Source of the DNA: a virus
Direction: 5' to 3' (one strand)
IMG/VR virus record: IMGVR_UViG_3300043499_000039
Span: 1 to 29,715 of that record
Length of the DNA: 29,715 bases
Positions within the stretch are counted from its first letter, which is position 1. Every line of letters begins with the position of its first letter. The notes below the pieces were generated by a model. That model was not told the origin of the DNA and searched no databases. It saw nothing but the letters and a program-made list of their open reading frames with translations. Position numbers and translations under genes: made by a program. Positions 1 through 28,124 of the stretch are shown piece by piece.

Positions 1-2
1 GT

Positions 3-263
3 GAGAGACTTGATGACCACCCTGAAGAGTTCACGCCCGGAGCGCTTCTTGAAATGGTTAAAACACTGGCTGATCGAACGGGGTTCGCCCCCACCACCAA
101 AAGCTTGAACATGAATGTGGACTTGAATTCATTCGCGGATAAGCTCCAGGCGGCGAGGAAACGCGCTGAGCGGCCCCAGCACAATCAAGCCTTAACAATC
201 GAGGTCAAGCAAGTCCCCGCTCCTACCGACAGCAGCCTGCTTGGCCGCGAGCCGGAGGATTAG
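3..263 (+). CDS. Probable small terminase subunit, C-terminal part (5'-truncated)
   Basis: This reading frame is open to the left edge, so only the last 86 codons are present and the true start lies outside the window. The visible part has an amphipathic helix (PEEFTPGALLEMVKTLADRTG), a Thr/Ser linker and a charged helix rich in Ala, Arg and Lys, and it ends SSLLGREPED. The helix-ADRTG-xxPT-K pattern, and the position just before the large terminase (with one small gene between), fit the C-terminal region of small terminases, which recognise the packaging site and feed DNA to the motor. The DNA-binding N-terminal half is not visible, so the call rests mainly on position and a family impression. 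An unrelated small phage protein is possible. A hairpin overlaps its stop codon. Confidence 0.5.
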   Translation, partial: ERLDDHPEEFTPGALLEMVKTLADRTGFAPTTKSLNMNVDLNSFADKLQAARKRAERPQHNQALTIEVKQVPAPTDSSLLGREPED

Positions 264-278
264 AAATGATTCTCCGGC
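251..278 (+). terminator. Hairpin overlapping the stop codon of the first gene
   Basis: GCCGGAGGAT at 251-260 pairs with ATTCTCCGGC at 269-278 (10 bp with one G-U) around an 8-nt loop that holds the TAG stop. It is followed by ACTTTTA, a weak T run. It could be a weak terminator or a 3'-end stabilising structure. Confidence 0.4.
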
Positions 279-324
279 ACTTTTACCCCCTCCAAGGTTG
301 TTCGCGAGCCGGCCTTGGTAACTC

Positions 325-354
325 GAGGGCGTCCGCATAACGCCCTCTCTTTTT
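325..354 (+). terminator. Intrinsic (rho-independent) terminator
   Basis: GAGGGCG at 325-331 pairs perfectly with CGCCCTC at 341-347 around a 9-nt loop, followed by TCTTTTT at 348-354. This is the classical stem plus T-tract arrangement. The T tract ends only four bases before the Shine-Dalgarno of the next gene, so there is no room for a promoter between terminator and gene. Downstream expression would need read-through, antitermination or a regulated structure switch. Confidence 0.75.
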
Positions 355-357
355 AAC

Positions 358-362
358 AGGAG
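358..362 (+). promoter_or_regulatory. Shine-Dalgarno of the Acb2-like gene
   Basis: AGGAG lies 5 nt before the ATG at 368. It is a strong site and supports this small reading frame as a real gene. Confidence 0.7.
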
Positions 363-367
363 TTAAG

Positions 368-586
368 ATGAGCTTAGGTTCCGATCGAGTTCGTGAAGGC
401 TTCAATCCATCCAACGATAACTTGGTCGATAAGATCAAGCGTTACACGGCCGATTTGATTGACCTCTGTAACGCCGAGAACGACAAGCACGATGACCCGG
501 AGAAGGGTCGGCTGTTGTCCTTGGCAATGACACACTACGAAGATGCAGCGATGTGGGCGGTCAAGGCCGTCACGACACCGAAGTGA
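368..586 (+). CDS. acb2: Acb2/Tad1-hairpin family protein (DUF7681-like), putative anti-CBASS cyclic-nucleotide sponge
   Basis: This 72-aa protein has a short N-terminal segment (SDRVREGFNPS) and two predicted helices: VDKIKRYTADLIDLCNAEN (residues ~20-38), then a D-P-E-x-x-R turn and LLSLAMTHYEDAAMWAVKAVT (residues ~49-69). The I-K-x(3)-A-x-L-I-D-L pattern, followed by A-x-T-H-x-E-x-A-x-M-W-A-V-K-A-x-T-x-P, is the one I know from the Acb2/Tad1-hairpin family. Characterised members are small phage proteins that oligomerise and sequester cyclic di- and trinucleotide signals of CBASS defence. Length fits the family (about 60-95 aa). A strong Shine-Dalgarno precedes it, and the large terminase starts 6 nt after its stop with a poor ribosome site, suggesting coupling. 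The sponge role is inferred from family membership; ligand-binding residues were not verified. Confidence 0.66.
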   Translation: MSLGSDRVREGFNPSNDNLVDKIKRYTADLIDLCNAENDKHDDPEKGRLLSLAMTHYEDAAMWAVKAVTTPK

Positions 587-592
587 TAATCA

Positions 593-2134
593 ATGCTTGC
601 TAAGATCGAAGACCCTCAGAAAGAGATGGCCGACGCACTTGCTCGCTACACCAACGATCCAGTTGGTTTCGTCGCTTGGGCTTTTCCTTGGGAAGCGCCG
701 GAGACGGAGTTGGAACGGTTTAAAGGGCCGGAACAATGGCAGCTGACGGTCCTTGAGGGGATTCGGGATGGCTTGCTCACAGCGAACCAAGCCATCCAGC
801 TTGCTATTGCTTCCGGTCACGGCGTCGGTAAGAGTGCGTTGGTTGCGTGGATCATTCTTTGGTCTTTAACCACCTTCGAGGATTGTCGCGGGGTCGTTAC
901 AGCTAACACCGAAACGCAGCTGAAGACGAAGACGTGGGCCGAGCTGACGAAGTGGCACCGGCTGTTTATGGGCCGTGAACACTTCAAGATGACAGCCACT
1001 GCAATCTATAACACCGGCCCTGACCGCGAACGAAGCTGGAGGATTGACTTGATCGCTTGGTCGGAGCGGAGCACGGAAGCGTTCGCTGGACTGCATAACA
1101 AGGGCAAGCGGATTCTGGTGATCTTCGATGAGGCCTCGGCTATTCCAGATGTGATCTGGGAGACGACTGAAGGCGCGCTGACGGACAGTGATACACAGAT
1201 CGTGTGGATGGTCTGCGGAAACCCAACTCGTAACTCCGGCCGGTTCCGCGAGTGCTTCGGCCGCTTCCGCTATCGCTGGAAGACGTTCGAGGTCGACTCC
1301 AGAACAGTCAGCATCACGAATAAAGAGCAATTCAAACGATGGGTCAGGGACTATGGCGAAGACAGCGACTTCGTTCGAGTTCGCGTCCGCGGAGTGTTCC
1401 CGCGAAGCGGGTCGATGCAGTTCATCGGGCTTGACACAGTTGAAGCTGCCACTCAGAGAGAGCTACCGTCAAGAGCCTCGCCATTCGAGCCGTTTATTAT
1501 TGGAGTTGACGTTGCTCGCTTCGGTGACGACGCCAGCTGCATCGCGTTCCGCAAGGGAAGAGACGCTCGAACAGTTGAGCCTATCATTCTGAGAAACGTC
1601 GATACGATGCAACTCTCGGGGAGGGTCGCCGATGTCTTTTCGCAGTATAAGGCGGACGCAGTATTCGTGGACGGCGGCGGAGTGGGAGGTGGTGTTGTTG
1701 ACCGTCTTCGCCAGCTGCATGTCCCTGTCTTCGACATCCAATTCGGAGGGAAGAGCGACCGAACAGATCTTGAGGAGGGTGCAAGAAGTGCTAACAAACG
1801 ATCAGAGATATGGCACTCAATGAAGAAGTGGCTTGAGATCGGCTGCTTGCCGAACGAAGGTCAGTTCATGCAACAATACAGAGAAGAGTTGCCTGGACCT
1901 GAGTACGGCTTCAACATCCGAGATGAAATTCAGCTGGAACGCAAAGAGGATATGAAGCGACGGGGCTACGCTTCGCCCGACTTGAGCGACGCCCTTGCCC
2001 TTACCTTCTCTTATCCTGTGATGCCGAGCATTTATGCTGGGGGCGAGCACGCACAGTTCCGGTCGAAGCAGCCAATGGCTGAAGGTGTTGACTACGACCC
2101 CTTCACGAACAGGGCGATTGGAATCAGCGCGTGA
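593..2134 (+). CDS. terL: Terminase large subunit (packaging ATPase and nuclease)
   Basis: At 513 aa this is normal length for a large terminase. The N-terminal motor has Walker A SGHGVGKS (74-81), Walker B LVIFDE with the catalytic Glu (175-180) and a coupling motif CGNPT (209-212). The C-terminal RNase H-like nuclease has acidic residues in GVDVARFGDD (Asp306), VFVDGGG (Asp360) and DLSDALAL (Asp466). It docks on the portal, translocates DNA into the procapsid and cuts the concatemer. The ATG at 593 is taken as start; the Shine-Dalgarno is weak, so translation is probably coupled to the preceding small gene. An internal ATG at 626 is a less likely alternative. The stop overlaps the next gene as GTGA. 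Packaging mode (headful or cohesive end) cannot be read from this alone. Confidence 0.96.
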   Translation: MLAKIEDPQKEMADALARYTNDPVGFVAWAFPWEAPETELERFKGPEQWQLTVLEGIRDGLLTANQAIQLAIASGHGVGKSALVAWIILWSLTTFEDCRGVVTANTETQLKTKTWAELTKWHRLFMGREHFKMTATAIYNTGPDRERSWRIDLIAWSERSTEAFAGLHNKGKRILVIFDEASAIPDVIWETTEGALTDSDTQIVWMVCGNPTRNSGRFRECFGRFRYRWKTFEVDSRTVSITNKEQFKRWVRDYGEDSDFVRVRVRGVFPRSGSMQFIGLDTVEAATQRELPSRASPFEPFIIGVDVARFGDDASCIAFRKGRDARTVEPIILRNVDTMQLSGRVADVFSQYKADAVFVDGGGVGGGVVDRLRQLHVPVFDIQFGGKSDRTDLEEGARSANKRSEIWHSMKKWLEIGCLPNEGQFMQQYREELPGPEYGFNIRDEIQLERKEDMKRRGYASPDLSDALALTFSYPVMPSIYAGGEHAQFRSKQPMAEGVDYDPFTNRAIGISA

Positions 2135-2217
2135 GGCACATCGAAGCTGATAAGTTTTTGGTGGGGACGGTCTTGATCCTGATACTTTTGCTCGTCGTTT
2201 GCGGAGTGTCAAAATAA
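2131..2217 (+). CDS. 28-aa single-span membrane peptide
   Basis: GTG at 2131 overlaps the terminase stop (GTGA) and the stop TAA at 2215-2217 overlaps the ATG of the next gene (TAATG). The 28-residue product begins MRHIEADK and continues as one uninterrupted hydrophobic stretch, roughly residues 9-25 (Phe, Leu, Val, Ile, one Cys), ending GVSK. Precise overlaps on both sides and a clean charged-then-hydrophobic layout argue for a real gene, though ribosome binding is weak (GGA about 9 nt upstream). A single-span peptide could be a small holin-type or other membrane-active protein, but no family is recognised. It could also be a chance frame kept open by the overlap. Confidence 0.45.
   Translation: MRHIEADKFLVGTVLILILLLVVCGVSK
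2203..2206 (+). promoter_or_regulatory. Shine-Dalgarno that decides the start at 2217
   Basis: GGAG lies 10 nt before the ATG at 2217. An in-frame TTG at 2199 lies upstream of this site and is not supported, so 2217 is the preferred start. Confidence 0.5.
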
Positions 2218-2678
2218 TGGCGATACAGCTTGGACAGCCGGTTGTCTTTAGACCTGGCACGGCCTTCGAAGAGAGGTGGGGACCGGGACAATACCTCTCG
2301 GGAATGGTCACGAGCATTACTGGTGGCGAGGCCTCACTGATCGTTTGGCCCGCTGGAGAGTATCCACCTTATTACGAGCTGCGTGTCAGTCGAGACGATG
2401 CCCTAGCAAAGCCCCGCACATGGACGCCCTCGGTCAGTGACACGTCTGCCCTCCCTGAGGCTCCTTCAGATGGTCAGATCTACGGCCGCCGGAATCAGGC
2501 TTGGACGCCCGTAATTACTGGTGGATCTGGTGGTGGTGTCTCTGCTATCGTTATCTCCGATACTGTGCCTGCACAGCCTCTCGAGGGAATGGCGTGGCTG
2601 GACACCACCATCAACAACTTCTTCATCTATCAACAAGGTGTTTGGGTCGAGCCCGCTCACCTGAACCCTGTTCCGTAG
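2217..2678 (+). CDS. Tail-fibre-associated structural protein, 153 aa
   Basis: Residues ~1-65 look like a small beta domain (PVVFRPG, GMVTSITGG, SLIVWPAG, YYELRVSRD). Residues ~83-99 carry DGQIYGRRNQAWTPV, a motif common in phage fibre proteins. Residues ~111-145 (ISDTVPAQP, then GMAWLDTTINNFFIYQQGVWVE) are a degenerate copy of a module that appears twice in the next gene. The Gly/Ser linker at ~102-108 separates them. It is probably a short fibre, fibre adaptor or fibre-tip partner. It starts inside the stop of the membrane peptide (TAATG), and the main fibre gene follows after 9 nt. No enzymatic motif is seen. The structural role is inferred from shared modules and position. Confidence 0.6.
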   Translation: MAIQLGQPVVFRPGTAFEERWGPGQYLSGMVTSITGGEASLIVWPAGEYPPYYELRVSRDDALAKPRTWTPSVSDTSALPEAPSDGQIYGRRNQAWTPVITGGSGGGVSAIVISDTVPAQPLEGMAWLDTTINNFFIYQQGVWVEPAHLNPVP

Positions 2679-2687
2679 GACACTGAG

Positions 2688-4724
2688 ATGGCAATCCAGT
2701 TTCCAATCAACCCGCAGCAAGGCCAACAGTACACTCCTGCTGGTATTCCGCTGACGTGGCAGTACGACTCAGGACGACACGCCTGGAGAGTGCTTCGCTC
2801 GGCCGCAAGCTGGAATGAGATTGGTGGGAAACCAGCTACGTTCCCGCCGTCTGCTCACTCACACATCATCGCAGATGTTACTGGTCTGCAAGATGGATTG
2901 AACCTGAAGCAGGACTCGAGTGCGAGAGGCTTCCCGAACGGTTACGCCTCGCTCGATGGAAATGGCCTCGTTCCAACAAGCCAACTGCCTCCACTTAGCG
3001 AGACTGATTGGAACCAGATCGAGAACAAGCCGAGCGAGTTCCCACCCTCTGCTCACTCTCATCCCGTCGCCCAGATCAGCGACAGCTCGAGCGTTGGCCA
3101 GCAACTCGTCCGCTCACCCACGGCTCAGGATGCGAGGAATGTGATTGGGGCCATTGGGCCTGATGACAACGCTCGAGTTAAGGTTAAGCTTGCTGGCGTC
3201 TCGATGGGGATCAGACGAGCGATCAACTTTATCGAGGGCCTGAATGTAACGCTAGCTGTGGCGGATGATGCTGTTAATGAAGAGGTGGATGTAACGATTA
3301 ACTCGTCTGGTGGAGGCGGTGGTGGAGCCTCGATCCTCGTTAGTGAGACTAAGCCCGTTGCACCAGCTGACAATACGATGTGGCTCGACTCAGCGACAGG
3401 CATCACTTACATCTACTACAACGATGGAGGTGGACATCAGTGGATCGAGCCGCTCCCCTACATTCCTGCGCAGCCAGCCGCTTACACAAAGATAGTCTTC
3501 CCTGTCGCACCAGTCAACGATCAAGCCTTCACTGCGTATGCGGGGGCGGTCTGGAAGTGGTCATCGGTGAGAGGTGTTTGGTACGCTGCGCAAACGGCCA
3601 GTCAGTCTTATACGAAGGCTGAGGCGGACACTAAGTTCGTCGATATTGTCGGCGATACTATGACGGGGGCGCTGACACTGAGTGGCAACCCGACCGCTCC
3701 ACTCCAAGCCGCCACTAAACAGTACGTCGACAGCAAGGCTCCGATCATCGTAAGCGACACTCCACCACCCACTCCGCTTGACAACACGCTATGGTGGGAA
3801 AGTGATACTGGCATTCTTTATCTCCGCTATAATGATGGCGTAGGCCCTGTTCAGTGGGTCCAGGCGGTTGCGACACCAGTGCTCGATACGTCAGCGCTTG
3901 TTAAAAAAGCTGGCGATACGATGACTGGTAACCTGGTGATCAGTACACCAGCTGGCAATGCATCACTTACTTTAAATAGTGGTATCAGCAATATCGAGAT
4001 TGGCAGGATGGATGGCGTTGCCAGCACTCCATTCATTGATTTCCACTCAGGTGCAGCGGTTACTGACTTCGATGCTCGATTGATTGCGAGTGGAAGTGGC
4101 GCTGCAGCCGAGCTTAAGTTAGATGGCGGAAACTTTGTGCTGCCCCGCGATCCTACGTCAGGGCTTCACGCTGCCACCAAGCAATACGTCGATCTCAAGA
4201 CATCAAATAGGCAACGCTTCACTTTAGACGGACTCAACTTAATTGACATTCCAGTTCCTGCGAATGCTGTTGCAGCGCGATTAAGTGGTTCGGCTTATTT
4301 TGCGGGAGCGGGCTCGACGTATCCTATGATACAGCTGAGTACTTCGGCCGGAGTGTTTATTAACTCAGTAGGGGGCTATGTCTTTAGTGGGAATCAGTTT
4401 ACTGCTTATCCAGCTGCAGCTTGGGCCTATTATACTAATAATGCTTCTATTGCAGGTTTCTTTTTGGTGCAAACTCAAGATAATAGCGGACTTCCTTTCA
4501 CCTGGGATGGGATGATGCAGGTTAAGAGAAAAGCCGTAGGAAATTATTTTTCAGGTGACTTCATATCGAGAGGTTATAACAATGCAACTGGACACGGGAT
4601 ATTTACTCTCAATAACCGTTGTCAGACTCCAGGCACCGGTCTTAGTGTCTTAGCTATTCGTTTTATCCTGTATAGCGGCACCCTCTTCGATACTAACAGT
4701 GTTCTCATTGTGGAGTGGCTGTAA
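2688..4724 (+). CDS. Tail fibre protein, 678 aa, modular
   Basis: The protein is a chain of fibre modules. N-terminal FPINPQQGQQYT with TWQYDS and W at ~33 is a beta module also found in the next gene. Two HSH repeats follow (PPSAHSHIIADVTGL ~53-67 and PPSAHSHPVAQISD ~119-132). A Gly-rich linker lies at ~208-214. Two copies of a W/Y-rich module span ~217-253 (SETKPVAPADNT, YIYYNDG, QWIE) and ~354-391 (SDTPPPTPLDNT, YLRYNDG, QWV). GDTMTG occurs at 322 and 409, and AATKQYVD at 341 and 495. Residues ~505-678 form a different, probably beta-rich C-terminal domain encoded by visibly more AT-rich DNA, likely the receptor-binding tip. It should act at the virion surface in host recognition. The stop overlaps the next start (TAATG). 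Confidence 0.85.
   Translation: MAIQFPINPQQGQQYTPAGIPLTWQYDSGRHAWRVLRSAASWNEIGGKPATFPPSAHSHIIADVTGLQDGLNLKQDSSARGFPNGYASLDGNGLVPTSQLPPLSETDWNQIENKPSEFPPSAHSHPVAQISDSSSVGQQLVRSPTAQDARNVIGAIGPDDNARVKVKLAGVSMGIRRAINFIEGLNVTLAVADDAVNEEVDVTINSSGGGGGGASILVSETKPVAPADNTMWLDSATGITYIYYNDGGGHQWIEPLPYIPAQPAAYTKIVFPVAPVNDQAFTAYAGAVWKWSSVRGVWYAAQTASQSYTKAEADTKFVDIVGDTMTGALTLSGNPTAPLQAATKQYVDSKAPIIVSDTPPPTPLDNTLWWESDTGILYLRYNDGVGPVQWVQAVATPVLDTSALVKKAGDTMTGNLVISTPAGNASLTLNSGISNIEIGRMDGVASTPFIDFHSGAAVTDFDARLIASGSGAAAELKLDGGNFVLPRDPTSGLHAATKQYVDLKTSNRQRFTLDGLNLIDIPVPANAVAARLSGSAYFAGAGSTYPMIQLSTSAGVFINSVGGYVFSGNQFTAYPAAAWAYYTNNASIAGFFLVQTQDNSGLPFTWDGMMQVKRKAVGNYFSGDFISRGYNNATGHGIFTLNNRCQTPGTGLSVLAIRFILYSGTLFDTNSVLIVEWL
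4712..4715 (+). promoter_or_regulatory. Shine-Dalgarno that decides the start at 4724
   Basis: GGAG lies 8 nt before the ATG at 4724, which itself sits in TAATG with the upstream stop. A GTG at 4715 would begin inside this site and is rejected. Confidence 0.55.
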
Positions 4725-6456: not shown

Positions 6457-6627
6457 ATGTCTATAGGTCTGTTGTTTTGGGTGCTCATGATCTTGTGGTT
6501 CTTCTCGTGGATCGGGACAAGGTGGGGTGGGTTGACTGGACCTTATCTCTACGCGAGTGAGCTGCTGTTCTTCATCTTGCTGTTCTTGCTTGGATGGCAC
6601 TCGTTCGGCTTCGTAATTCATGCTTAA
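6457..6627 (+). CDS. 56-aa two-span membrane protein
   Basis: ATG at 6457 lies 4 nt after the previous stop, with GAGGTGA at 6446-6452 as ribosome site. The product has two hydrophobic segments (residues ~4-20, GLLFWVLMILWFFSW, and ~33-53, LLFFILLFLLGWHSFGF) joined by a short turn TRWGGLTGP. Short two-span proteins with a W/F-rich first helix and an LLGW-xxFG ending recur in this position of podovirus genomes. It could be a holin, but the turn is short and no pore data exist. The next gene has its own strong AGGAGG site. Confidence 0.68.
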   Translation: MSIGLLFWVLMILWFFSWIGTRWGGLTGPYLYASELLFFILLFLLGWHSFGFVIHA

Positions 6628-6630
6628 CAA

Positions 6631-6636
6631 AGGAGG
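6631..6636 (+). promoter_or_regulatory. Shine-Dalgarno that decides the start at 6642
   Basis: AGGAGG lies 5 nt before the ATG at 6642. The longer in-frame start at 6594 would overlap the two-span gene and lacks such a site. Confidence 0.7.
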
Positions 6637-6641
6637 CGAAA

Positions 6642-6986
6642 ATGACGGTAGGTGTTACTGGAGTCTATAAGGCCCCAACTGATATGGCGGCCGCTGATCC
6701 ACGGGTGCTCGCAAGAGTGGGGCCTGGGACGGAGAGTGCCGCGTTGGTGACGGGAGTCAGTGCTGATGGAGCGCTTATGAGCCTCCGTGTTTTCCCTGAT
6801 CAACAAGAGGACTTCTCCATTCGAGGGATTGGGATCGTCGATGATCCAGTGATTGGGAGCTTCGTTGCAGGGGCACATCCAGAGGCTCCGCCGATCACGC
6901 GTGGTGCTGAAGGACGGAGCAAGCCAATGTTCAGCCCTGACAAGCCCGATCGTACACCTGACAACAAACACGAACGGAGGCCGTAA
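6642..6986 (+). CDS. Hypothetical phage protein, 114 aa
   Basis: Residues ~1-90 look like a compact alpha/beta protein (VARVGPGTES-like opening, ALVTGVSADGALMSLRVFPD, IRGIGIVDDPVIGSFVAGAHP). The tail after ~93 is Pro/Lys/Arg-rich and probably disordered. No catalytic motif or family is recognised. The start is fixed by the AGGAGG just upstream. The stop TAA overlaps the next ATG. Position between membrane proteins and the portal suggests a late, possibly virion-associated protein. Confidence 0.6.
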   Translation: MTVGVTGVYKAPTDMAAADPRVLARVGPGTESAALVTGVSADGALMSLRVFPDQQEDFSIRGIGIVDDPVIGSFVAGAHPEAPPITRGAEGRSKPMFSPDKPDRTPDNKHERRP

Positions 6987-7195
6987 TGTTCGGAGGCGGA
7001 GGCTCAACACCACCACCACCTAAGCCACCTCCAGTGCCGCCGCCAGCTCCTACACCAGCTGACACGAGCGTTGTTGAGGCTGGACAAAAGATCAGATCGG
7101 CCTCGAAGGCAGGGGTTGGTGCAACCATAGCAACTGGTAGCGGGGGTCTCACGACACCTGCCACTACTAGTTCTAAGTCATTGTTAGGGGATTAA
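6986..7195 (+). CDS. Proline-rich small protein, MFGG/KSLLG type, copy 1
   Basis: The 69-aa protein opens MFGGGG, then has a long proline run (residues ~8-25), a short amphipathic region (VVEAGQKIRSASKAG) and a conserved-looking end SSKSLLGD. Short proline-rich proteins ending in S/T-LLG lie just upstream of the portal in many podoviruses. The function is not known to me. It starts in TAATG with the previous gene and is followed after one base by a second protein of the same layout. Confidence 0.65.
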   Translation: MFGGGGSTPPPPKPPPVPPPAPTPADTSVVEAGQKIRSASKAGVGATIATGSGGLTTPATTSSKSLLGD

Positions 7196-7196
7196 G

Positions 7197-7406
7197 ATGT
7201 TTGGCGGAAACGACCAACAGCCGACTCCACCATCAGCTCCGATCCAACAGGCAACGACTCCAATGCCGACGGCAGCGCCGTCACAACCAGGTACTGATCC
7301 GCAGAAGATTGCGGGTCAGCTAGAAGCTAATCAAGCGAAGCCTGGGGATTTGGCAACACCTTCTCAGGATCAAGAAGACTCTAACAAGTCTTTGTTGGGG
7401 CGCTAG
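7197..7406 (+). CDS. Proline-rich small protein, MFGG/KSLLG type, copy 2
   Basis: It is also 69 aa, opening MFGGND and ending NKSLLGR, with a Pro/Gln/Thr-rich middle. The equal length and shared ends, MFGG and SLLG, suggest a diverged tandem duplicate of the preceding gene even though the middles are different. The portal starts directly after its stop. No function is recognised; a docking peptide for a virion component is one idea, by inference only. Confidence 0.63.
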   Translation: MFGGNDQQPTPPSAPIQQATTPMPTAAPSQPGTDPQKIAGQLEANQAKPGDLATPSQDQEDSNKSLLGR

Positions 7407-9101
7407 ATGAACAAGAAAACTCGCCAGGAGAGAGCGGAATGGGCGGATCAACGCTTGATCGCGATGAGAACTCCGCGCTACTCTTGGTGGGTTCACTGGA
7501 GGGAGCTGGCTAACTTCCTCTTGCCGAGGAGATACAAGTGGCTGATAACACCGAACGAGATGAGTCGAGGAACGCAACTGAACACAGGTATTATCGACTC
7601 TACAGGTACAATTGCCGCTCGGGTGTGTGCGGCTGGTATGATGAGCGGAATCACCTCACCTACGAGGCCCTGGTTCCGTCTGGGGATCGAGGGACTGCAA
7701 CTGAACGACTCGTCGAACCCAGCGTCACTGTGGCTTGCTGAGTGCGAGAAACGATTGCTTAAAGTCTTCGCGGAGTCAAACTTCTACAATGCTATGGCTA
7801 CTTTGTATCTTGATCTTGTTGTGTTCGGTACAGGTGTTTCGATTTGCTACGAGGACTACGAGAACGTGGTCCGCTTTTACAACCCTTGTGCGGGCGAGTA
7901 TTATCTTGAGGCGGGTCCGACTTATGAAGTGGATACGCTCGCAAGAGAGTTCACGATGACCGTTAAGCAAGTTGTACAGGAGTTCGGACTGGAGAATTGT
8001 TCGGAGTCGACGAAGAAAGCTTACGCGCAACCAGGAGGTCGGACTCAAGAGATTGTTGTTTGTCATCTGATTGAGCCGAATGATGGCAGTGAAAGACAAA
8101 AGTGGAAGTACATGGAGCTGTATTGGGAGAGGGGCAATACAGCGGAGGGGCCGCTCCGGTGGAGTGGATACAATGAGTGGCCTGTCATTGCTCCTCGCTG
8201 GGACCTCGTCTCGAACGATGTTTATGGCAGATCACCTGCTATGGATGCTCTTGGGGACATCAAACAGCTGCAACAGGAGACAAAGAGGAAGGGACAGGCG
8301 ATTGACAAGATGGTTAATCCGCCAATGCTCGCTGATGTTCAGCTTCGCAATCAACCGGCCTCGTTGATGCCAGGTGGTGTCACTTATGTGAGTGGCTTAC
8401 AGAACGTGGGCTACAAGCCTGTGTTCACAGTCAATCCGCCGATCAACGACTTGAAGGAAGACATTAAGGAGATTCAGGAGCGGATTAAGGTCATCTTTTT
8501 CAATGATCTCTTCATGATGATCTCTCAGCTAGACACGGTGAGGACCGCAACGGAGATAGATGCGAGACGAGAGGAAAAGTTGATTATGCTTGGCCCCGTG
8601 CTCGAGCGGTTTGAACAGGAGGCGCTTGATCCAGTGATCGAGCGGATCTTTGGGATCATGATGAGGGCTGGTTTGTTGCCGCCTCCGCCCGAGGGCCTTC
8701 TTAAGGAAGGTCAAGGATTGAATGTTCAGTACGTTTCGATGCTTGCTGAAGCACAGCGAGCGGTGTCTGCTTCAGGGATGGAGCGGGTGATGGGCTTGGC
8801 TGGTAACATCGCCGCAGCTGATCCTTCCGTGCTTGACAACATCAACGTGGATGAGTTTATGGTGGAGTATGCGGACTTGATGGGTGTGCCTCCGAAGATC
8901 TTGAGGAACCGAGATGAAGTGGCAGCTCTCCGTGCAGAAAAGCAGAAGCAACAGCAGCAAGCGGCGCTTCTTGGTCAGACTGACGCGGCGGTTAAGGGGG
9001 CGCAGGTACTTTCCAAGACGGACGTGGGCGGTGGCCAGAATGCTTTGGCCGCCATGATGGGACTTGGTGGGCCGCAATCAGGGACTGAGGTTCAACAGTG
9101 A
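7407..9101 (+). CDS. Portal protein (T7 gp8-like head-tail connector)
   Basis: The 564-aa length fits the T7-type head-tail connector family. The N-terminus has the characteristic RxPRYSWWVHWRELANFLLPRR stretch and TGIIDSTGTIAARVCAAGMMSGITSPTRPWFRL (residues ~50-91). It continues with GTGVSICYEDYENVVRFYNPCAGEYYL and a PPMLADVQL segment. The C-terminal ~40 residues are Gln/Ala-rich with a LGGPQSG end. Twelve copies should form the DNA channel at one capsid vertex, the docking site for the terminase and the adaptor. The stop overlaps the next gene as GTGA. Confidence 0.93.
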   Translation: MNKKTRQERAEWADQRLIAMRTPRYSWWVHWRELANFLLPRRYKWLITPNEMSRGTQLNTGIIDSTGTIAARVCAAGMMSGITSPTRPWFRLGIEGLQLNDSSNPASLWLAECEKRLLKVFAESNFYNAMATLYLDLVVFGTGVSICYEDYENVVRFYNPCAGEYYLEAGPTYEVDTLAREFTMTVKQVVQEFGLENCSESTKKAYAQPGGRTQEIVVCHLIEPNDGSERQKWKYMELYWERGNTAEGPLRWSGYNEWPVIAPRWDLVSNDVYGRSPAMDALGDIKQLQQETKRKGQAIDKMVNPPMLADVQLRNQPASLMPGGVTYVSGLQNVGYKPVFTVNPPINDLKEDIKEIQERIKVIFFNDLFMMISQLDTVRTATEIDARREEKLIMLGPVLERFEQEALDPVIERIFGIMMRAGLLPPPPEGLLKEGQGLNVQYVSMLAEAQRAVSASGMERVMGLAGNIAAADPSVLDNINVDEFMVEYADLMGVPPKILRNRDEVAALRAEKQKQQQQAALLGQTDAAVKGAQVLSKTDVGGGQNALAAMMGLGGPQSGTEVQQ

Positions 9102-20295: not shown

Positions 20296-23200
20296 ATGGC
20301 TGATGTGAATTATAGCTCAGGATTGGGGCCGCCTGCTCCAGACGACTACCTCAATCCTTATCTTCCTGAGGAGGTGAAGAAGAAAAAGCCTATCGTCTCG
20401 CTCGTTGATGCAGAGGAGAAACAGGCTAACCATGATGAAATGCTTGTTCGTTCGAGTCTCATTGGTCATCAGGACACCAATCCAGACGATTATGCTAAGT
20501 CTATAGAGACTGCTAAAAAAGTCGGAGTCCACCCTGATCTTGTTCACGTCGAGCGGGACGCGTGGGAGAAGGATAGAGTAACACAGCTCAACACAACTAT
20601 CGCCTCTGTCAACCCTGAACTGGCGAAATGGCTGTACAAAGACCCTGCAAATGTGCAGACGAGTCGCGACGATTTGCCAACGCTTGATCGACTCACTCGT
20701 TTGCTCAAGCGTGGATGGGACTCTCCAATAACACAAGTTGCAGCAGGGCCAATTCTCTCGAATTTACGGCTTATCAACGACGTAACTCAAGACGTTATAA
20801 AGGCTGGTGACGATTATAACCTCGCTTATGAGGCTCATCAGTACGGTATGGCCGCTTATAAGTATCAAGCGGGCGATGTTTCGGTGCTTCCTAAATTGCT
20901 TGAGTACGAAGCGAAACAAAAAGAGCGCCAACCTTCAGGTGCTTCTTGGGTAACAGCGACTTTCGCCGAGTTTTTGGGTGGAACCGCGGCACAGTTACCT
21001 GAAGCGGTGATGGCTTCGGCAGCGGGCGCTGGTGTTGGTGCTGTTGCAACGGCCGCGACAGGGCCTGGAGTGATTGCAGGCACTGCTACTGGTGCAACAG
21101 TCGGCTTGCTCGGCTCTTTCTCTATTCAAACTGGTCTTGCCGCCTCTGGCTCCATCTATCGTGAGCTGGATTTGATGCGAGACCCTTATGGGACGCCGAT
21201 CGACGAGTCTGTTAAGCAAGTCATGGCTATAACAGGTGGAACGCTTGTTGGTGGGTTGAACTTGGCTAGCGGAACCCTGGCAAAGAGCGCCGTTGTTGCA
21301 ACGCTGAAGAATATGGCCGCTGATGTTGGGATCAGACAAGGGATTACAGAAGCTGTAACGGCAGTAGCTCGTTATGGATACAAAGCGGCGATCCTGAATG
21401 TCGCGCAGACGCTTGCTGAGGAGCTTTCGAAAGAGATTGCACTGGAAGCGACGAATGCTGGTGGTGGCCACGTTGGAGATGAAAGAAAGTATACTGCTTT
21501 TGATACGATCTTCAATAGTCCAGAGAAAATTCAAGAGCTTGGTGCGAAAGCTGTTGAAGCTGCTGGGAAGGGCTTCTTACTTGGGAGTACACTTGGTGTC
21601 GGCCCCGCTGTTTCTCACGCTCGTATTCCAACGAAGCTTGATAAAGTCCAGATCATCGCCAACCAAAACAGGCTTGATCAAGCGCTCGAGATCACTCGAC
21701 TTAGCCGCCAGATGGAGCGTGATCCAGCTGCGATGGCTGACTTGGCTGATGGTGTTGATAAACAGCCGATCGGCATTCCGCTTGAGATTGTTGTAGCTAA
21801 TCGAAAAGCGTTCGAGTTCATTCCTGACCTCGACAAACAACTCGCGAGTGCAGAAACGACCGGAACTGAGATACAGACGACCGTCGGTCAGTATATGACG
21901 AATGTGCCGCCTGAGTTGCATCCGGAGATAAAAGACTATGTGCGGCAGGGGGATGGTTGGTCTCCGGCTGAGATGAAGGCGATCGAGGAAGCACAAAAAG
22001 CGCTCAAAGAGCATGAGAAAGCGATTGCTGATACGGCGAAAGCGGCTGAAGCGGCAGTACCACCGACAGCACCAGGAATAGGAGCACAAGTTGTTCAGGC
22101 TCTTCAACCGCTTGCTGATCAGCTTCCTGACACCATTCCCGCCCAACAGCTTAACTTGCCGGGGCTCGAGACGTCGATCCAACTTCCTGAGATACAGGTT
22201 AAGCCGAATGTCTTTCGCCGTTTGTTGACTGATCGACGAGAAGCGCCACCAATCGACTTAGCTCTCCAGAAGACGAACGAGCTTCGGCTTAAAGCGGGCT
22301 TGACAAAGATTGAGACTCCACCAACACCGGAGACACAGTTAGAGTTTAGTCTGCATCCACCTGAGCCGCACGTCTTTCCACCAACTCCTGAAGGTCCGAT
22401 TAAGCTTGGTCCAGTGAGTGAAGATGCGGTGCTGATTAAGCGAGCGAAGTCGGAGCAGACGATCCGCGAGAATCCACTCCCGAAGGAAGAAGCGGAACTA
22501 CTGTTTATTCAAGAGTTTAAAGGTCAGATCCGCGCTGTTAAGCTGAAAGAGGATCAAATCCTCGAGGCTGCGGTTAGGCGTGATCCTAAGACTATGGAAG
22601 AGTTCCATCGCTTCATTGATGAAGAAGCAAAGCGGGTTGCTCAGGTTGAGCGAGAAGCGGCGCTTAAGCATGAGGAGTCAAGAGTCGAAGGAATCTTGAG
22701 GAAAGAAGGAGAGGAAGTTGAACCGACTCGGAAGCCAGGTGAGATTACTGAAGAGGAGATGGTTTCGATCTGGGGATCGGAAAAGGTATTCAAGAGCAAG
22801 GAAGGGCCTCCGCTACCAACTCCACCGGCCGAAATCCCTGGAGTTATTGATACCAAGGTGATCCACAGCGTCGCCGATATTGCTTACTCGAATTGGGCAA
22901 CGAAGCTGATGCAGACTGAAGGTGAGGCGGTTGTTAACTCACTGGATGATCTTGATGCAAGACTGGCAGCGAGTCAAACTGGAGCGGCGATTGAGAAGCA
23001 ACGAAAGCTGATGTGGCTTTCTCCACTCTTCGAGTCGCCTAAGGCGATGGGTCTGATTGTCAAAGATTTTGCTCGATACAGCAAGCACATTCAAGAGGTT
23101 CAGCGAAAGCTCACGAAGTCTGTCTTCGACGCCGCTAACAAGATTATTCGACAGAAAGAGACTGCTCAATGGAAGGTGTGGGCGAAGGAGATTGGGCCTG

Positions 23201-26200
23201 AGGTTGCGGATGCTGTTGCGAGGAGGCCGGAGGTCTTTTTGCCTGATTACTTGATCACTGGAAAGGTAAGATTTAAGGTTGAAGGGAAGCTGCCTCCAGT
23301 TAAGTTGATCGCAGCGGATGTTGACTCGTTGTTTACGAGAGATGAACTGACAGCGATGGGGGTGAGAGAAGGTGAGAACATCAGTGATACACTACCAAGC
23401 AAGATGTTTATCAAAGACCCAACGCGGCAGATAAGTGCTGATAATCTGGCGACTGTCTTCCAGCAAGGGGATGGGAAGACGCTGATTAGAAACTTGATGG
23501 AGAATGAGAAGGCGAGAGTTGATGCTGGGGAGACGAATACTCAACGATACTCGAGGCTCGTTAATGAGGAGATCAATCGTAGATTGACTGATGAACATGG
23601 AGATATGGAACAGAATATACTTGAGAGGAGTGTCGCAGCGGCGGTTGATGTTGCTCAACTTGATGTGCTTACTGATGAAATGAAGGCGCTCTCGAATGGA
23701 GTGAGAATTGATAATGACTCGATTGTCAAGCACATTCGAACAGAGGTTGGGAAGTTGTCTGTTGAGGAGGCGTCGAGAGTCGAGCATTATCAAACACAGA
23801 CAGGAAAGTATGGGAATGCTGCTGAACAAGCGCTGCTCGCCGGTGATTACGTTAGTGCTTTCAAAGCGAAGCAAAATCAATATATGTTTCTCCTTCGAAC
23901 GCGAATGGCTGTTGAGCTGAAGCAACAACAAGCTGAAACTGGCGCAATCATGCGGAAGTACGCGAGTCGTCCAGCTGTTGATAGTGTGACGCCTGAATAC
24001 AATGCACGGATACTCGAGTTTCTTCGAGCGGCTGGAGTGAAGATTGGGCAGTCGAGAGATGATGCGACACTGAACGCTGACATCAAGTCCTTCAAAGGAA
24101 CAGGACATCTGAGTTTGAACGAGTGGATCGCTAACAGGCAAGAAAGAGGCGAGATCATCTCACAGCCAACATTCCTCGAAGAAATGAAACAGAAAGGACA
24201 GAGTGTTGAGGAGTGGAAGGCGCTTACCGTTGATCAGTTTAATGAATTCAGGACTGTTTTATCAGAGCTTGATAACGTCGGGACGGACTCTAAGTTTGTG
24301 CAAACGGTTGGAAGCAAGCTTGCACACGATCTCGTTGTTGAAAGCGTGAGAGAAAGTCTCTCTCCGAGGCTCGGTCAGCCTGAACGATATAGGACTGATG
24401 TTGAATCAGGGGTTTGGCGGGCAAAGATGAGAGGATTTGATGCAAGCCTCTTAAAGATTGAGACACTTTTGACTTGGCTTGACGCAAATGACCCTAATGG
24501 TCCGATGACTCAATACTTCTTCCGGCCCTTCAAAGAGGGTCAAGCGAAGATGGAGAAGCTTCAGGAAAAGTTCGCGAAGCAAATTCAAGAGAATGTACCG
24601 CTCCATCTTAAGCTAAAAGAAGCGACTGAAAACCGTTGGCTTACTGATGAGTATGGGAACATGATGCCGATCAAGCGGACCAATATGTTTGGGATCGCTG
24701 GATTGTTCTTTGGCAATGAGGAGTCACGAAAGAAACTGCTTGATGGTTATAAGTGGAACGAGCAAGATGTTTATGAGTATTTGCTGACGAATATGAAGTC
24801 CATTGATGATTGGCATTACCTTGATAGCATTTATAGAGTATGGGATGAACTGACTGCAGAGAAGAGTAATGTCTACAGACAGGTGAGAGGTTATGGTTGG
24901 GAGCCACCTCCAGCTATGACTTACTTTGATCGCTATGGAAATGAGAGGAAAGGCGGTTACTGGTCGATTGTTGACTCAGATTCAGATTCGACACAGTTTC
25001 GTGAGCAACAAGGGCTCGTTGATCGCAGACAATTCAATCCGTTGCCCTCGGCGACTGTTCAGCTCGAGTCGACGAAAGGGATGCTGCGACCAAGCCTTGA
25101 TTTTGAAACACTTGGTTATCGGATTAAAGAAACACTTCATGACATCTCTTTTCGTCCAGCGGTGGTGAATGCGCTTCGAATGCTCGAGGATAGACAGATC
25201 TTGGGGCTTGTTAAAGACTCTTATGGAAAGGAGTATGGCGATACTATTGAGCGCTGGGTTTCGGATATGGCTAATGATAGTGGATGGAGAGATGATATTG
25301 GGGCGACTGTAGCAACGAAGCTGTTTCGCTATGTAGGGCAAGCGGCTATTGTTCATCTTGTTGGTTTCAGTCCAGCTACTGCCATTATCCACAGTGGGTC
25401 CGCGGCCGCAAATACAGTCGGCGAATTGAAGTGGCAATCAATCTCAGCCACTTACAAAGTTGTCGGTGATACTCTATTAAAATCATCTGACATGCTCTTC
25501 AGAAATCCAAGAAATCTTGAGCTTGCGACAAACTTTGCTTGGGAAAATTCACCTGAACTTCAGTCCCGCTGGAATAAAGACAACTTCAATCTTGTGAAGG
25601 CGCTTGGACACTGGAGTAATCTTCAGACGATTCAATGGAGTTATAATCGTTGGGCTCAAAGCTTTATCTCGCTTACTGACTATATGACGGCTGTTGTTGC
25701 TTGGCACGCTCAATACACGAACTCAACAAATGATGGAAAGTCTCATGAAGACGCAGTTTTTATGGCTGACAGACTTGTTCGTGCTGCTCACGGCGGAGTC
25801 TCACAACTTGATAAAGCCGCAATCCAACGGAGTCTTAATTTAGCTCCATTCACTATGTTCTATGGTTATTTCAACCACAACTACAATCAATTCAGGCGAT
25901 TTAGTCATGAGATAAATGAAGGAACAGCTGCAACAAAACAAGAGTTTATGAACGACGAGTATGGGAAGATAGCAAAGAGGATGAGTGGACCGTTTTGGCA
26001 GGGAATGATGTATTTCGCAGCTTATGGTCTTGTGCCGGCTCTTATTCACGAGGCCGTTCGTGGCAAGGAAGAAGAAGAGTTTGATCTTCCCTCTTTCCTT
26101 GGCAAGGCTGTTCTAAGTCAAGGTGCTGGGATGGTTCCATTCTTTAGGGATTTTGCTTACTCGTTCTTGCATCCAGGAGTGCAAAGTGGTGGCATTCCCT

Positions 26201-26484
26201 TGATGCAAGTGTGGGGTGCGGCTGGTACTATTTCTCGTGGGGCGAAGAAGGTTTGGGAGGGAGAATGGCCAAAGCCTTCTGAAGCACAAGCATTGCTTAT
26301 TCCACTTAAGCTCGGTTCAAAAACCCTCGGTCGTTTTGCTGACTATATGTTCGACTCTGAGCAAGACGCTCCGAGAAATGTAAGAGAGTGGAAGAACTTG
26401 ACGATTTACGGTCAGCCGACGATGCCTGGAGTGAGACGGAAGAAAGCAAGGCCTGCACGAACAGGCCACGATTACAGACAGTGA
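20296..26484 (+). CDS. Giant gp16-like internal virion protein, 2062 aa
   Basis: This is the longest gene in the window. Its position, last in the core block, matches T7 gp16. The N-terminal ~215 residues are helical and charged. Residues ~235-335 are Ala/Gly-rich and hydrophobic (AVMASAAGAGVGAVATAATG, GATVGLLGSFSI, ITGGTLVGGLNLASG), consistent with membrane insertion. The middle (~460-1500) is long, helical and highly charged, with short Pro-rich linkers. The C-terminal part has further hydrophobic helices (AIVHLVGFSPATAIIHSGSA; MMYFAAYGLVPALI) and a FNHNYNQFRRFSHE stretch. No hydrolase motif was seen, unlike T7 gp16. The ribosome site is weak and the gene starts 3 nt after the previous stop, so coupling is likely. 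Confidence 0.83.
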   Translation: MADVNYSSGLGPPAPDDYLNPYLPEEVKKKKPIVSLVDAEEKQANHDEMLVRSSLIGHQDTNPDDYAKSIETAKKVGVHPDLVHVERDAWEKDRVTQLNTTIASVNPELAKWLYKDPANVQTSRDDLPTLDRLTRLLKRGWDSPITQVAAGPILSNLRLINDVTQDVIKAGDDYNLAYEAHQYGMAAYKYQAGDVSVLPKLLEYEAKQKERQPSGASWVTATFAEFLGGTAAQLPEAVMASAAGAGVGAVATAATGPGVIAGTATGATVGLLGSFSIQTGLAASGSIYRELDLMRDPYGTPIDESVKQVMAITGGTLVGGLNLASGTLAKSAVVATLKNMAADVGIRQGITEAVTAVARYGYKAAILNVAQTLAEELSKEIALEATNAGGGHVGDERKYTAFDTIFNSPEKIQELGAKAVEAAGKGFLLGSTLGVGPAVSHARIPTKLDKVQIIANQNRLDQALEITRLSRQMERDPAAMADLADGVDKQPIGIPLEIVVANRKAFEFIPDLDKQLASAETTGTEIQTTVGQYMTNVPPELHPEIKDYVRQGDGWSPAEMKAIEEAQKALKEHEKAIADTAKAAEAAVPPTAPGIGAQVVQALQPLADQLPDTIPAQQLNLPGLETSIQLPEIQVKPNVFRRLLTDRREAPPIDLALQKTNELRLKAGLTKIETPPTPETQLEFSLHPPEPHVFPPTPEGPIKLGPVSEDAVLIKRAKSEQTIRENPLPKEEAELLFIQEFKGQIRAVKLKEDQILEAAVRRDPKTMEEFHRFIDEEAKRVAQVEREAALKHEESRVEGILRKEGEEVEPTRKPGEITEEEMVSIWGSEKVFKSKEGPPLPTPPAEIPGVIDTKVIHSVADIAYSNWATKLMQTEGEAVVNSLDDLDARLAASQTGAAIEKQRKLMWLSPLFESPKAMGLIVKDFARYSKHIQEVQRKLTKSVFDAANKIIRQKETAQWKVWAKEIGPEVADAVARRPEVFLPDYLITGKVRFKVEGKLPPVKLIAADVDSLFTRDELTAMGVREGENISDTLPSKMFIKDPTRQISADNLATVFQQGDGKTLIRNLMENEKARVDAGETNTQRYSRLVNEEINRRLTDEHGDMEQNILERSVAAAVDVAQLDVLTDEMKALSNGVRIDNDSIVKHIRTEVGKLSVEEASRVEHYQTQTGKYGNAAEQALLAGDYVSAFKAKQNQYMFLLRTRMAVELKQQQAETGAIMRKYASRPAVDSVTPEYNARILEFLRAAGVKIGQSRDDATLNADIKSFKGTGHLSLNEWIANRQERGEIISQPTFLEEMKQKGQSVEEWKALTVDQFNEFRTVLSELDNVGTDSKFVQTVGSKLAHDLVVESVRESLSPRLGQPERYRTDVESGVWRAKMRGFDASLLKIETLLTWLDANDPNGPMTQYFFRPFKEGQAKMEKLQEKFAKQIQENVPLHLKLKEATENRWLTDEYGNMMPIKRTNMFGIAGLFFGNEESRKKLLDGYKWNEQDVYEYLLTNMKSIDDWHYLDSIYRVWDELTAEKSNVYRQVRGYGWEPPPAMTYFDRYGNERKGGYWSIVDSDSDSTQFREQQGLVDRRQFNPLPSATVQLESTKGMLRPSLDFETLGYRIKETLHDISFRPAVVNALRMLEDRQILGLVKDSYGKEYGDTIERWVSDMANDSGWRDDIGATVATKLFRYVGQAAIVHLVGFSPATAIIHSGSAAANTVGELKWQSISATYKVVGDTLLKSSDMLFRNPRNLELATNFAWENSPELQSRWNKDNFNLVKALGHWSNLQTIQWSYNRWAQSFISLTDYMTAVVAWHAQYTNSTNDGKSHEDAVFMADRLVRAAHGGVSQLDKAAIQRSLNLAPFTMFYGYFNHNYNQFRRFSHEINEGTAATKQEFMNDEYGKIAKRMSGPFWQGMMYFAAYGLVPALIHEAVRGKEEEEFDLPSFLGKAVLSQGAGMVPFFRDFAYSFLHPGVQSGGIPLMQVWGAAGTISRGAKKVWEGEWPKPSEAQALLIPLKLGSKTLGRFADYMFDSEQDAPRNVREWKNLTIYGQPTMPGVRRKKARPARTGHDYRQ

Positions 26485-26532: not shown

Positions 26533-26934
26533 ATGACTCTATCCACTCAATCATCAGCCGCCACTTACTTAGGCAACGGCGCGACAACTCAGTGGGCGTT
26601 CGACTTTCCAATAATGGACTTGAGTCACGTTCAACTCAAGACCAAAGACGCAACCGGAGCGCTGAACAACATCGCGCCTGCTGATTATCAGGTGGTGGGG
26701 ATAGGCTCTCCGACTGGTGGCTACGTCGCCTATCCCCTTTCGGGCAACCCGGTTCCTCCCGGCTGGCGAGTCCGCGTTCAGCGCGTAGTCCCCCTTGTTC
26801 AACCAGTTGAGATCATCAATCAAGAAGCGTTTTATCCAGAGGTCATAGAAAGTGCTGCTGATTACGGCCGCTTCATTGATCAGCAGATGGCGCAAAGGCT
26901 CACTGATCTGGAGGCGGGCGATCTGTGGGTTTAG
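26533..26934 (+). CDS. Tail-fibre N-terminal anchor domain as a standalone protein, 133 aa
   Basis: The sequence opens MTLSTQSSAATYLGNGATTQWAFDFP and continues LSHVQLKTKDATGAL, YQVVGIGSPTGGYVAYPLSGNPVPPGWRVRVQRVVPLVQPVE, YPEVIESAADYGRFIDQQMAQRLTDLE. This is the T7 gp17 N-terminal fold that attaches fibres or tailspikes to the tail. Here it ends at ~133 aa just after the trailing helix, with no receptor-binding part. A separate fibre protein may dock on it, as with branched adaptor systems. The ribosome site GAGGTGA precedes ATG 26533. Its TAG stop shares bases with the stop of the convergent ATPase gene. The alternative is a truncated fibre remnant. Confidence 0.85.
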   Translation: MTLSTQSSAATYLGNGATTQWAFDFPIMDLSHVQLKTKDATGALNNIAPADYQVVGIGSPTGGYVAYPLSGNPVPPGWRVRVQRVVPLVQPVEIINQEAFYPEVIESAADYGRFIDQQMAQRLTDLEAGDLWV

Positions 26935-28124
26935 AAGTCCTGAGGTTTGGGTAAGGGCTTGAATGCTCGGTGCCCACTAGGAGTGAGGATGTGCTCGACA
27001 TGACCAGTCCGGACCATGAGCTGCATAAGCTTCTCGACGTTATGAGCAGGGACGCGCTCGCTCAAAAAGAGGGCTACCACACTCTCCATAACTGGCTGAC
27101 CCGTCCGCCCATTCATCTTCCAAATAAAGTGCCAACAGTCTTGGAGCGCTTGAGAATCCCCGCCCTTGAGCATGGCCCTAAAGATGTCGGGCATCAGGGC
27201 CTCGGCCTCGAGCAACCATCCGAGAGCCTCTTGGTAATGCTGGATTTCTATCACCTGCGAAGCACCCCAGGCTACCGCGCACACCATGCACAACTTCAGC
27301 AAGTGGGCGGTTCGTCTGGGAATGTAGGAGGCCAGACGGGGATGGTCGGGAGTGGGGGGACCGCCGCTGAGAACCCAAGCTACCAAGGCGGTGGAAGCCT
27401 CTTTTGAGAAGACCAGCTCACCACGGCTGTCTCCTATCAAGCGGAGATCCTTTATGAGCCCTGTTAACTCGATTTTGGCTGGTGACTCAAAAGGATTGCG
27501 TGGCTCGCTTATCCCACAGTAGACCATAATGTTTCTGGAGATAAAACCCTGATCCCAAGCACCCTCTGGCATGAATTTTCCGAGGTAAGAAGGGGTAGAG
27601 CCACACACCAGATTAAAAAAAGGCTTGGCGATTGTGATTGACAGCTCTTTTGTTCTTCGTTTCTCACTATAAGGAGTTCCGTCATAGATGTCGGTGAGAG
27701 TGGACATAAAGGCGTGCTCATAAGCTGGGAGGAGAACGCCCATCTCGCTGATTGCGGCTGTGAGTGAGTTGTAGTCTTCATAGGGTCCAGGTCCAAACAG
27801 TTGTTTACGCTTTGCTCCATCAAGCTCATCAATAAATGAGGCTCGAGTTAACGAAGACGAGCCCTTATGATGCTCTTGAAGAAAACCCCACAGCTGATTG
27901 ATGCGAGCAAGTATGATTGACTTGCCCACTCCTGGTGGTCCGATCAGCATGACGTAAAGGTTTGGGAACAGTGGTGTTCCCCTAGAGACTACCCATATCT
28001 TTCTTTCCATCGCTCCTGCGATCGCTGCTATTCCAGCCCACTTCCGGAAGATGTCTGGCGAGGCTGTTTCAGCGGTCTGTTCTACAAATAACTCTATCCA
28101 AGATCTCCCACGGCCATTTTCCAC
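26931..28124 (-). CDS. P-loop ATPase, DUF3987-like, probable replication helicase or primase-helicase
   Basis: This 397-aa protein carries Walker A GPPGVGKS (residues 62-69) after a LFPNLYVMLI strand. The opening SWIELFVEQTAETASPDIFRKWAGIAAIAGAMERKIWV and later FNLVCGSTPSYLGKF, EGAWDQGFISRNIMVYC are the layout of DUF3987-type phage ATPases, which act in DNA replication and often pair with DNA polymerase. The N-terminal 31 nt overlap the end of the polymerase gene. GTG at 28124 is the start used, and its ribosome site is weak, so coupling is likely. The helicase function is inferred from family and neighbour. It converges on the late operon and shares TTAG at the stop codons. Confidence 0.75.
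   Translation of the reverse strand: MENGRGRSWIELFVEQTAETASPDIFRKWAGIAAIAGAMERKIWVVSRGTPLFPNLYVMLIGPPGVGKSIILARINQLWGFLQEHHKGSSSLTRASFIDELDGAKRKQLFGPGPYEDYNSLTAAISEMGVLLPAYEHAFMSTLTDIYDGTPYSEKRRTKELSITIAKPFFNLVCGSTPSYLGKFMPEGAWDQGFISRNIMVYCGISEPRNPFESPAKIELTGLIKDLRLIGDSRGELVFSKEASTALVAWVLSGGPPTPDHPRLASYIPRRTAHLLKLCMVCAVAWGASQVIEIQHYQEALGWLLEAEALMPDIFRAMLKGGDSQALQDCWHFIWKMNGRTGQPVMESVVALFLSERVPAHNVEKLMQLMVRTGHVEHILTPSGHRAFKPLPKPQDF

Follow-up and report, generated by a model that had tools for sequence, protein, structure and literature searches.

Why should a gene of the Acb2/Tad1-hairpin type, whose studied members sequester cyclic nucleotides, the alarm signals with which infected bacteria kill themselves, lie between the two terminase genes of a soil phage? 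Acb2 sponges are known from a limited set of cultured phages. The case considered here comes from IMG/VR record IMGVR_UViG_3300043499_000039, of which we analyzed positions 1 to 29,715 (29,715 nucleotides; hereafter the window). An earlier note on this DNA had singled out a 72-aa product as an anti-CBASS candidate and had regarded its location inside the packaging module as odd. We consider it probable (roughly 0.77) that the gene encodes a small, oligomeric, Acb2-type cyclic oligonucleotide sponge. It is an Acb2-family gene with a branch-specific N-terminal motif, in a place that is unremarkable for its kind.

A constrained gene between the terminase genes

The acb2-like gene occupies positions 368..586 on the plus strand, with its ATG at 368 and its stop codon at 584-586, and encodes a protein of 72 aa (MSLGSDRVREGFNPSNDNLVDKIKRYTADLIDLCNAENDKHDDPEKGRLLSLAMTHYEDAAMWAVKAVTTPK). 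A ribosome-binding site (AGGAG, 358..362, plus strand) lies 5 nt before the ATG. The open reading frame is placed exactly where the earlier note had put it. In the closest non-identical sequence, the near-identical contig L004, the gene differs by 10 synonymous and two non-synonymous changes under Nei-Gojobori counting (dN 0.012, dS 0.257, dN/dS ~0.05), while comparison with the more distant L005 and L006 gives a dN of ~0.1 with synonymous sites saturated. The acb2-like gene is a real gene under strong purifying selection.

The neighbouring genes can be assigned on both sides. Downstream, the terminase large subunit gene (TerL; 593..2134, plus strand, 513 aa) begins 6 nt past the acb2-like stop codon; its product matches PHROG phrog_2 (E 5.2e-43) and shares 44-48% identity with the TerL proteins of the epsilon15 type and of Pseudomonas phage AF. 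Upstream, the open reading frame at 3..263 (plus strand) is the C-terminal part of the terminase small subunit (TerS), cut by the start of the window. It is complete in L004 (2208-2825, 205 aa), where its sole phage match is the ‘putative small terminase’ of Caulobacter phage Kuura (E 2e-15), and the claimed site between terminase genes is thereby borne out. Further upstream of TerS, at 1280-2211 of L004, there are adjoining genes for an AAA_33 kinase-like and a dual-specificity-phosphatase-like protein.

In Pseudomonas phages AF and UFJF_PfDIW6, whose TerL proteins are ~45% identical to that of the window, the TerS and TerL genes share a few bases and nothing intervenes, whereas in the window they are spaced 329 nt apart and the interval holds the acb2-like gene and a terminator-like stem-loop. 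Judged from this comparison of gene order, the acb2-like gene looks like an extra gene inserted at the TerS-TerL junction. The predicted stem-loop with its T-rich tail (325..347, plus strand) lies between TerS and the acb2-like gene, directly before the ribosome-binding site of the latter, and consists of GAGGGCG-TCCGCATAA-CGCCCTC followed by TCTTTTT. Its sequence is identical in L003 and L004. A terminator before the gene was rejected as a general feature of the branch, since one occurs in 4/130 upstream regions, compared with 1.4% of random 150-mers. In an alternative fold of positions 325-371, a second hairpin forms whose loop contains the AGGA of the ribosome-binding site. Scanning positions 1-3000 of the window for promoters returned none (mean of 1.2 in shuffled sequences), and the stretch from the stem-loop to the acb2-like gene contains no promoter-like site.

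Family assignment, fold and conserved residues

The 72-aa protein matches the Pfam family PF24729 (Acb2/Tad1 hairpin) with an E-value of 2.6e-15. Its score of 56.8 bits stands far above the curated cut-off of 27, and residues 11-69 align with profile positions 1-57 of 58. All 20 of 20 relatives' records likewise exceed this cut-off, and the model has no match in 14 control genomes. In viral contigs, 485 relatives were confirmed, and 152 of 50,697 phage records match, of which 146 are from Flavobacterium phages. Taken together, the profile score, the absence of matches in the control genomes, the number of relatives and the dN/dS ratio indicate that the family match is not due to chance. The protein also matches PHROG 717, a group of unknown function (E 4.5e-9), and has no match in the NCBIfam library. 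Its identity to solved Acb2 proteins is low, and a single-sequence phmmer search of the PDB returned chance matches only. Searched against the PDB, a profile of the branch formed by the protein and its relatives recovers T4 Acb2 (7uq2) with an E-value of 4e-4 and gives a weak match to Tad1. Aligned by hhalign with a classical Acb2 set of eleven proteins (T4, p26, Ps60, Rollin, Vibrio, Klebsiella, Aeromonas and others), the branch gives a probability of 96.9% over residues 18-72 (E 1.9e-10, for a single comparison). The HMM search suggested in the earlier note, together with this profile comparison, thus upholds its family assignment. Of the two motifs on which that assignment had been based, IK-x3-A-x-LIDL is literally present (IKRYTADLIDL), but the second had been slightly mistyped: the actual sequence, AMTHYEDAAMWAVKA, reads A-x-TH-x-E-x-A-x-MWAVKA. 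While the family is already known, attention does not seem to have been drawn before to the branch or to its adjacency to packaging genes.

The predicted structure agrees with this assignment. An AlphaFold2 model of the monomer, built from an alignment of 32 branch members, has helices at residues 3-7, 18-38 and 44-69 with a mean pLDDT of 94, that is, a short N-terminal helix and two long antiparallel helices in a stand-alone protein of 72 aa. This is the architecture of Acb2, which consists of one short N-terminal helix and two long antiparallel helices (PMC10419184). In a Foldseek search of predicted viral structures (BFVD), Acb2/Tad1-hairpin proteins rank first (E 6.9e-5 and 1e-3), with TM scores of up to 0.86/0.91 among the best matches and of 0.82/0.91 for the match at E 1e-3, and the helical-hairpin fold expected by the earlier note is therefore recovered. 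Foldseek of the same model against the PDB gave nothing at E <= 0.001, which is uninformative because the hairpin is too short. The N-terminal beta-sheet domain of Tad1 is absent: the model contains no strands, and 17 residues precede the first helix of the hairpin.

Sixteen positions are invariant in the 32 branch sequences (G4, R7, V8, F12, N13, A28, I31, R48, A53, T55, E58, M62, W63, V65, K66 and T69), and P14 and K24 are among the nearly invariant ones. In a joint alignment, R48 corresponds to R67 of p26 Acb2 and to the Tad1 arginine in SRENACALTHVEEALMW, T55 to T4 T68 and p26 T74, K24 to p26 K26, and T69 to T4 F82. The core hairpin positions of Acb2 represented by p26 R67 and T4 T68 are thus occupied by R48 and T55 throughout the branch sample. 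We take p26 R67 to be a trinucleotide contact, and p26 K26 and Y11 to be dinucleotide contacts. The classical N-terminal motif of the dinucleotide site, KIKGYR, is absent from the branch, which carries a motif of the type RVRxxFNPS in its place. For the aromatic residue of the dinucleotide site, which is Y8 in T4 and Y11 in p26, no counterpart can be assigned securely, as the N-terminal alignment is ambiguous; the candidate is the invariant F12, which stands 12 rather than 15 residues ahead of the conserved lysine. It is possible, as judged from the alignment, that F12 in RVRxxFNPS substitutes for the Acb2 tyrosine. Because KIKGYR is replaced, the preferred ligand may differ, and the ligand specificity of the branch may not be that of classical Acb2. 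In T4 Acb2, T68M reduces binding (PMC12657230). F82 stacks against the base, and nucleotide-dependent activity, measured as Acb2-dependent activation of Panoptes, is lost in both Y8A and F82C (PMC12657218). The loss of activity in the latter two mutants ties the Acb2 fold to nucleotide binding.

The protein can be compared with several named systems. T4 Acb2 (Vs.4, PDB 7UQ2) shares the two-helix hairpin, the short N-terminal segment and the T-x(6)-MWA-[CV]-[RK]-A-V ending, in which T68 equals branch T55, but is longer (88 aa) with a longer hairpin and a GYK N-terminal motif, carries D61 in place of the invariant R48 and F82 in place of T69, and is encoded in the early/middle region of T4. The p26 Acb2 of Pseudomonas phages PaMx33/PaP2 (PDB 8H2J) shares the lysine, arginine and threonine (K26, R67 and T74, equal to K24, R48 and T55), and its short homologues of 74 aa are near the 72-aa protein in length; it differs in the N-terminus (KIKGYR-xLSxxEI, as against LGxxRVRxxFNPS in the branch) and in having MxxxRA where the 72-aa protein has MWAVKA. 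Tad1 (Thoeris anti-defence 1; PDB 7UAV, 8KBE) has R-x6-TH-x-E-x-A-x-MW in the second helix of its C-terminal hairpin, as does the 72-aa protein, which lacks the N-terminal beta-sheet domain of Tad1 (~125-140 aa) and is not expected to have its gcADPR pocket. The uncharacterized PF24729 proteins of Pasteurella phage Pmp11 and the Flavobacterium elemo phages belong to the same branch and carry the FNPS motif, although they are 44-53% identical to the 72-aa protein; that of Providencia phage PS3 also belongs to the branch (model TM 0.82/0.91). The PS3, Pmp11 and elemo proteins are annotated as hypothetical or by domain only.

Genomic placement of the relatives

We surveyed 147 loci from viral and genome contigs, from which those fetched twice had been removed and which are still partly redundant; a second viral scan contributed the best 80 of its 485 relatives. 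TerL neighbours were called by an iterated TerL profile search, so that a few may be false positives. In this partly redundant set, TerL lies within 500 bp of the branch gene in 47/147 loci and within 150 bp in 30/147, mostly downstream and on the same strand. Such adjacency (<=500 bp) was seen in 46/111 viral loci versus 1/36 loci in bacterial genomes. The adjoining TerL proteins fall into many clusters with less than 50% identity between them. In five other loci (L012, L029, L049, L005 and L008) the branch gene adjoins portal or major head genes, and in Pasteurella phage Pmp11 it directly precedes TerS-TerL. Elsewhere it is found among replication/recombination genes (L028, L034, L038 and L042), and in the Flavobacterium elemo phages it lies among early genes of this type.

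Classical Acb2 homologues are similarly varied in their placement. That of Ps60 adjoins a capsid gene, those of a Thiohalocapsa phage and Vibrio phage D53 lie between the portal and scaffold/major head protein genes, and that of Escherichia phage 716R3 precedes TerS-TerL; in T4 and Aeromonas phage 25, acb2 is among early/middle genes. Judged by these mixed neighbours in both groups, the packaging module is a site that Acb2 genes occupy repeatedly, above all in this branch, and the oddness attributed to it in the earlier note does not stand. The repeated occurrence next to TerL suggests that an anti-CBASS sponge does not have to be an early gene, a point of consequence for searches that restrict anti-defence genes to early regions.

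Two further observations come from this survey. The Rhodobacteraceae MAG CATOSB01 contributed seven contigs (L067-L073) with an acb2-like gene that is equally identical to the query in each. The neighbours are related as well, and it looks as though one genome were shared by several related prophages. In L011, residues 115-189 of a TerL-like open reading frame (6540-8849, 769 aa) match a thymidylate synthase PHROG as well, and this might be an intein inside the terminase.

Proposed function and alternative explanations

For the 72-aa protein, we infer the oligomeric state, ligand binding, timing of expression and, by homology, anti-CBASS action, and in the literature that we found, no binding or phage assay has been reported for any branch member. 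Solved Acb2 members are hexamers. The hairpin core forms a trinucleotide pocket in both Acb2 and Tad1; the N-terminal part helps to form a dinucleotide pocket. By analogy, protomers with a helical hairpin and a short N-terminal helix would assemble into an oligomer that binds cyclic oligonucleotide alarm signals, leaves them uncleaved and so prevents the activation of CBASS effectors, or of others that use these signals. The hairpin core of the trinucleotide pocket is kept (R48, T55), and the N-terminal part of the dinucleotide pocket is remodelled. Having entered the TerS-TerL junction, the acb2-like gene would probably be translated with TerL, and the sponge would be made at the start of the packaging/late block, as virion proteins accumulate. 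Phages deleted for acb2 are reported to evade CBASS via mutations in the major capsid protein (PMC10419184). This connects the alarm with virion proteins, and a sponge acting late, or at the onset of the late phase, would be coherent with it. Sponges also carry a cost, as Panoptes is triggered by T4 Acb2 (PMC12657218, PMC12657230). This cost may favour tuned specificity, and to see such a change in the altered N-terminal motif is speculation.

The proximity to virion genes would also fit a packaging or head accessory that lost, or never had, sponge function and is kept near the terminase or portal because it binds them. Branch genes are often linked to TerL, portal and major head genes, and the spacing to TerL is tight, being 6 nt here and with small overlaps or gaps in several other loci. 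However, the relatives adjoin unrelated terminase families and occur elsewhere among exonuclease, helicase and primase genes, which does not resemble the behaviour of a dedicated packaging partner; an acb2-like gene is missing from phages with a similar TerL, and R48 and T55 of the Acb2/Tad1 core have been kept. We therefore regard a packaging role as improbable. That the open reading frame arose by chance or is a decayed remnant could be argued from its shortness and from the lack of an NCBIfam match, but is rejected with near certainty on the strength of the PF24729 match, the dN/dS of ~0.05, the 485 relatives in viral contigs and the confident fold.

A narrower form of the sponge reading, overlapping with it in probability as a special case, deserves more weight than either of these, though we would put it below even odds: the protein may mainly capture a signal other than the CBASS dinucleotides, such as cyclic trinucleotides, which CBASS has in common with type III CRISPR, or some other nucleotide that fits the changed N-terminal motif. 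The core arginine of the trinucleotide type is invariant in the branch and the KIKGYR dinucleotide motif is missing; moreover, the two sites of Acb2 are independent, and cA3 and cAAG are among its ligands (PMC12043709, PMC11044969). Against this, a dinucleotide site could be rebuilt from the invariant F12 and K24, which is nearly invariant. The changed motif is in any case a natural test of the residues that set ligand choice.

The Acb2-type sponge, which we continue to prefer, could be extended to the branch as a whole, which has hundreds of relatives in viral metagenomes and few among phage records outside Flavobacterium phages. It is conceivable, although on balance doubtful, that this is a distinct and mostly environmental Acb2 branch with a rebuilt N-terminal pocket and another signal preference, which moved repeatedly to the beginning of the packaging operon in unrelated phages, and whose sponge is produced alongside the terminase and head proteins just when virion assembly sets off CBASS.

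In the rest of the window, a polyvalent protein of 2062 aa with an LPD22 domain is encoded downstream of the structural genes (20296-26484), and a DNA polymerase A gene and a DUF3987/primase-like gene (26931-29551, minus strand) converge on the structural operon.
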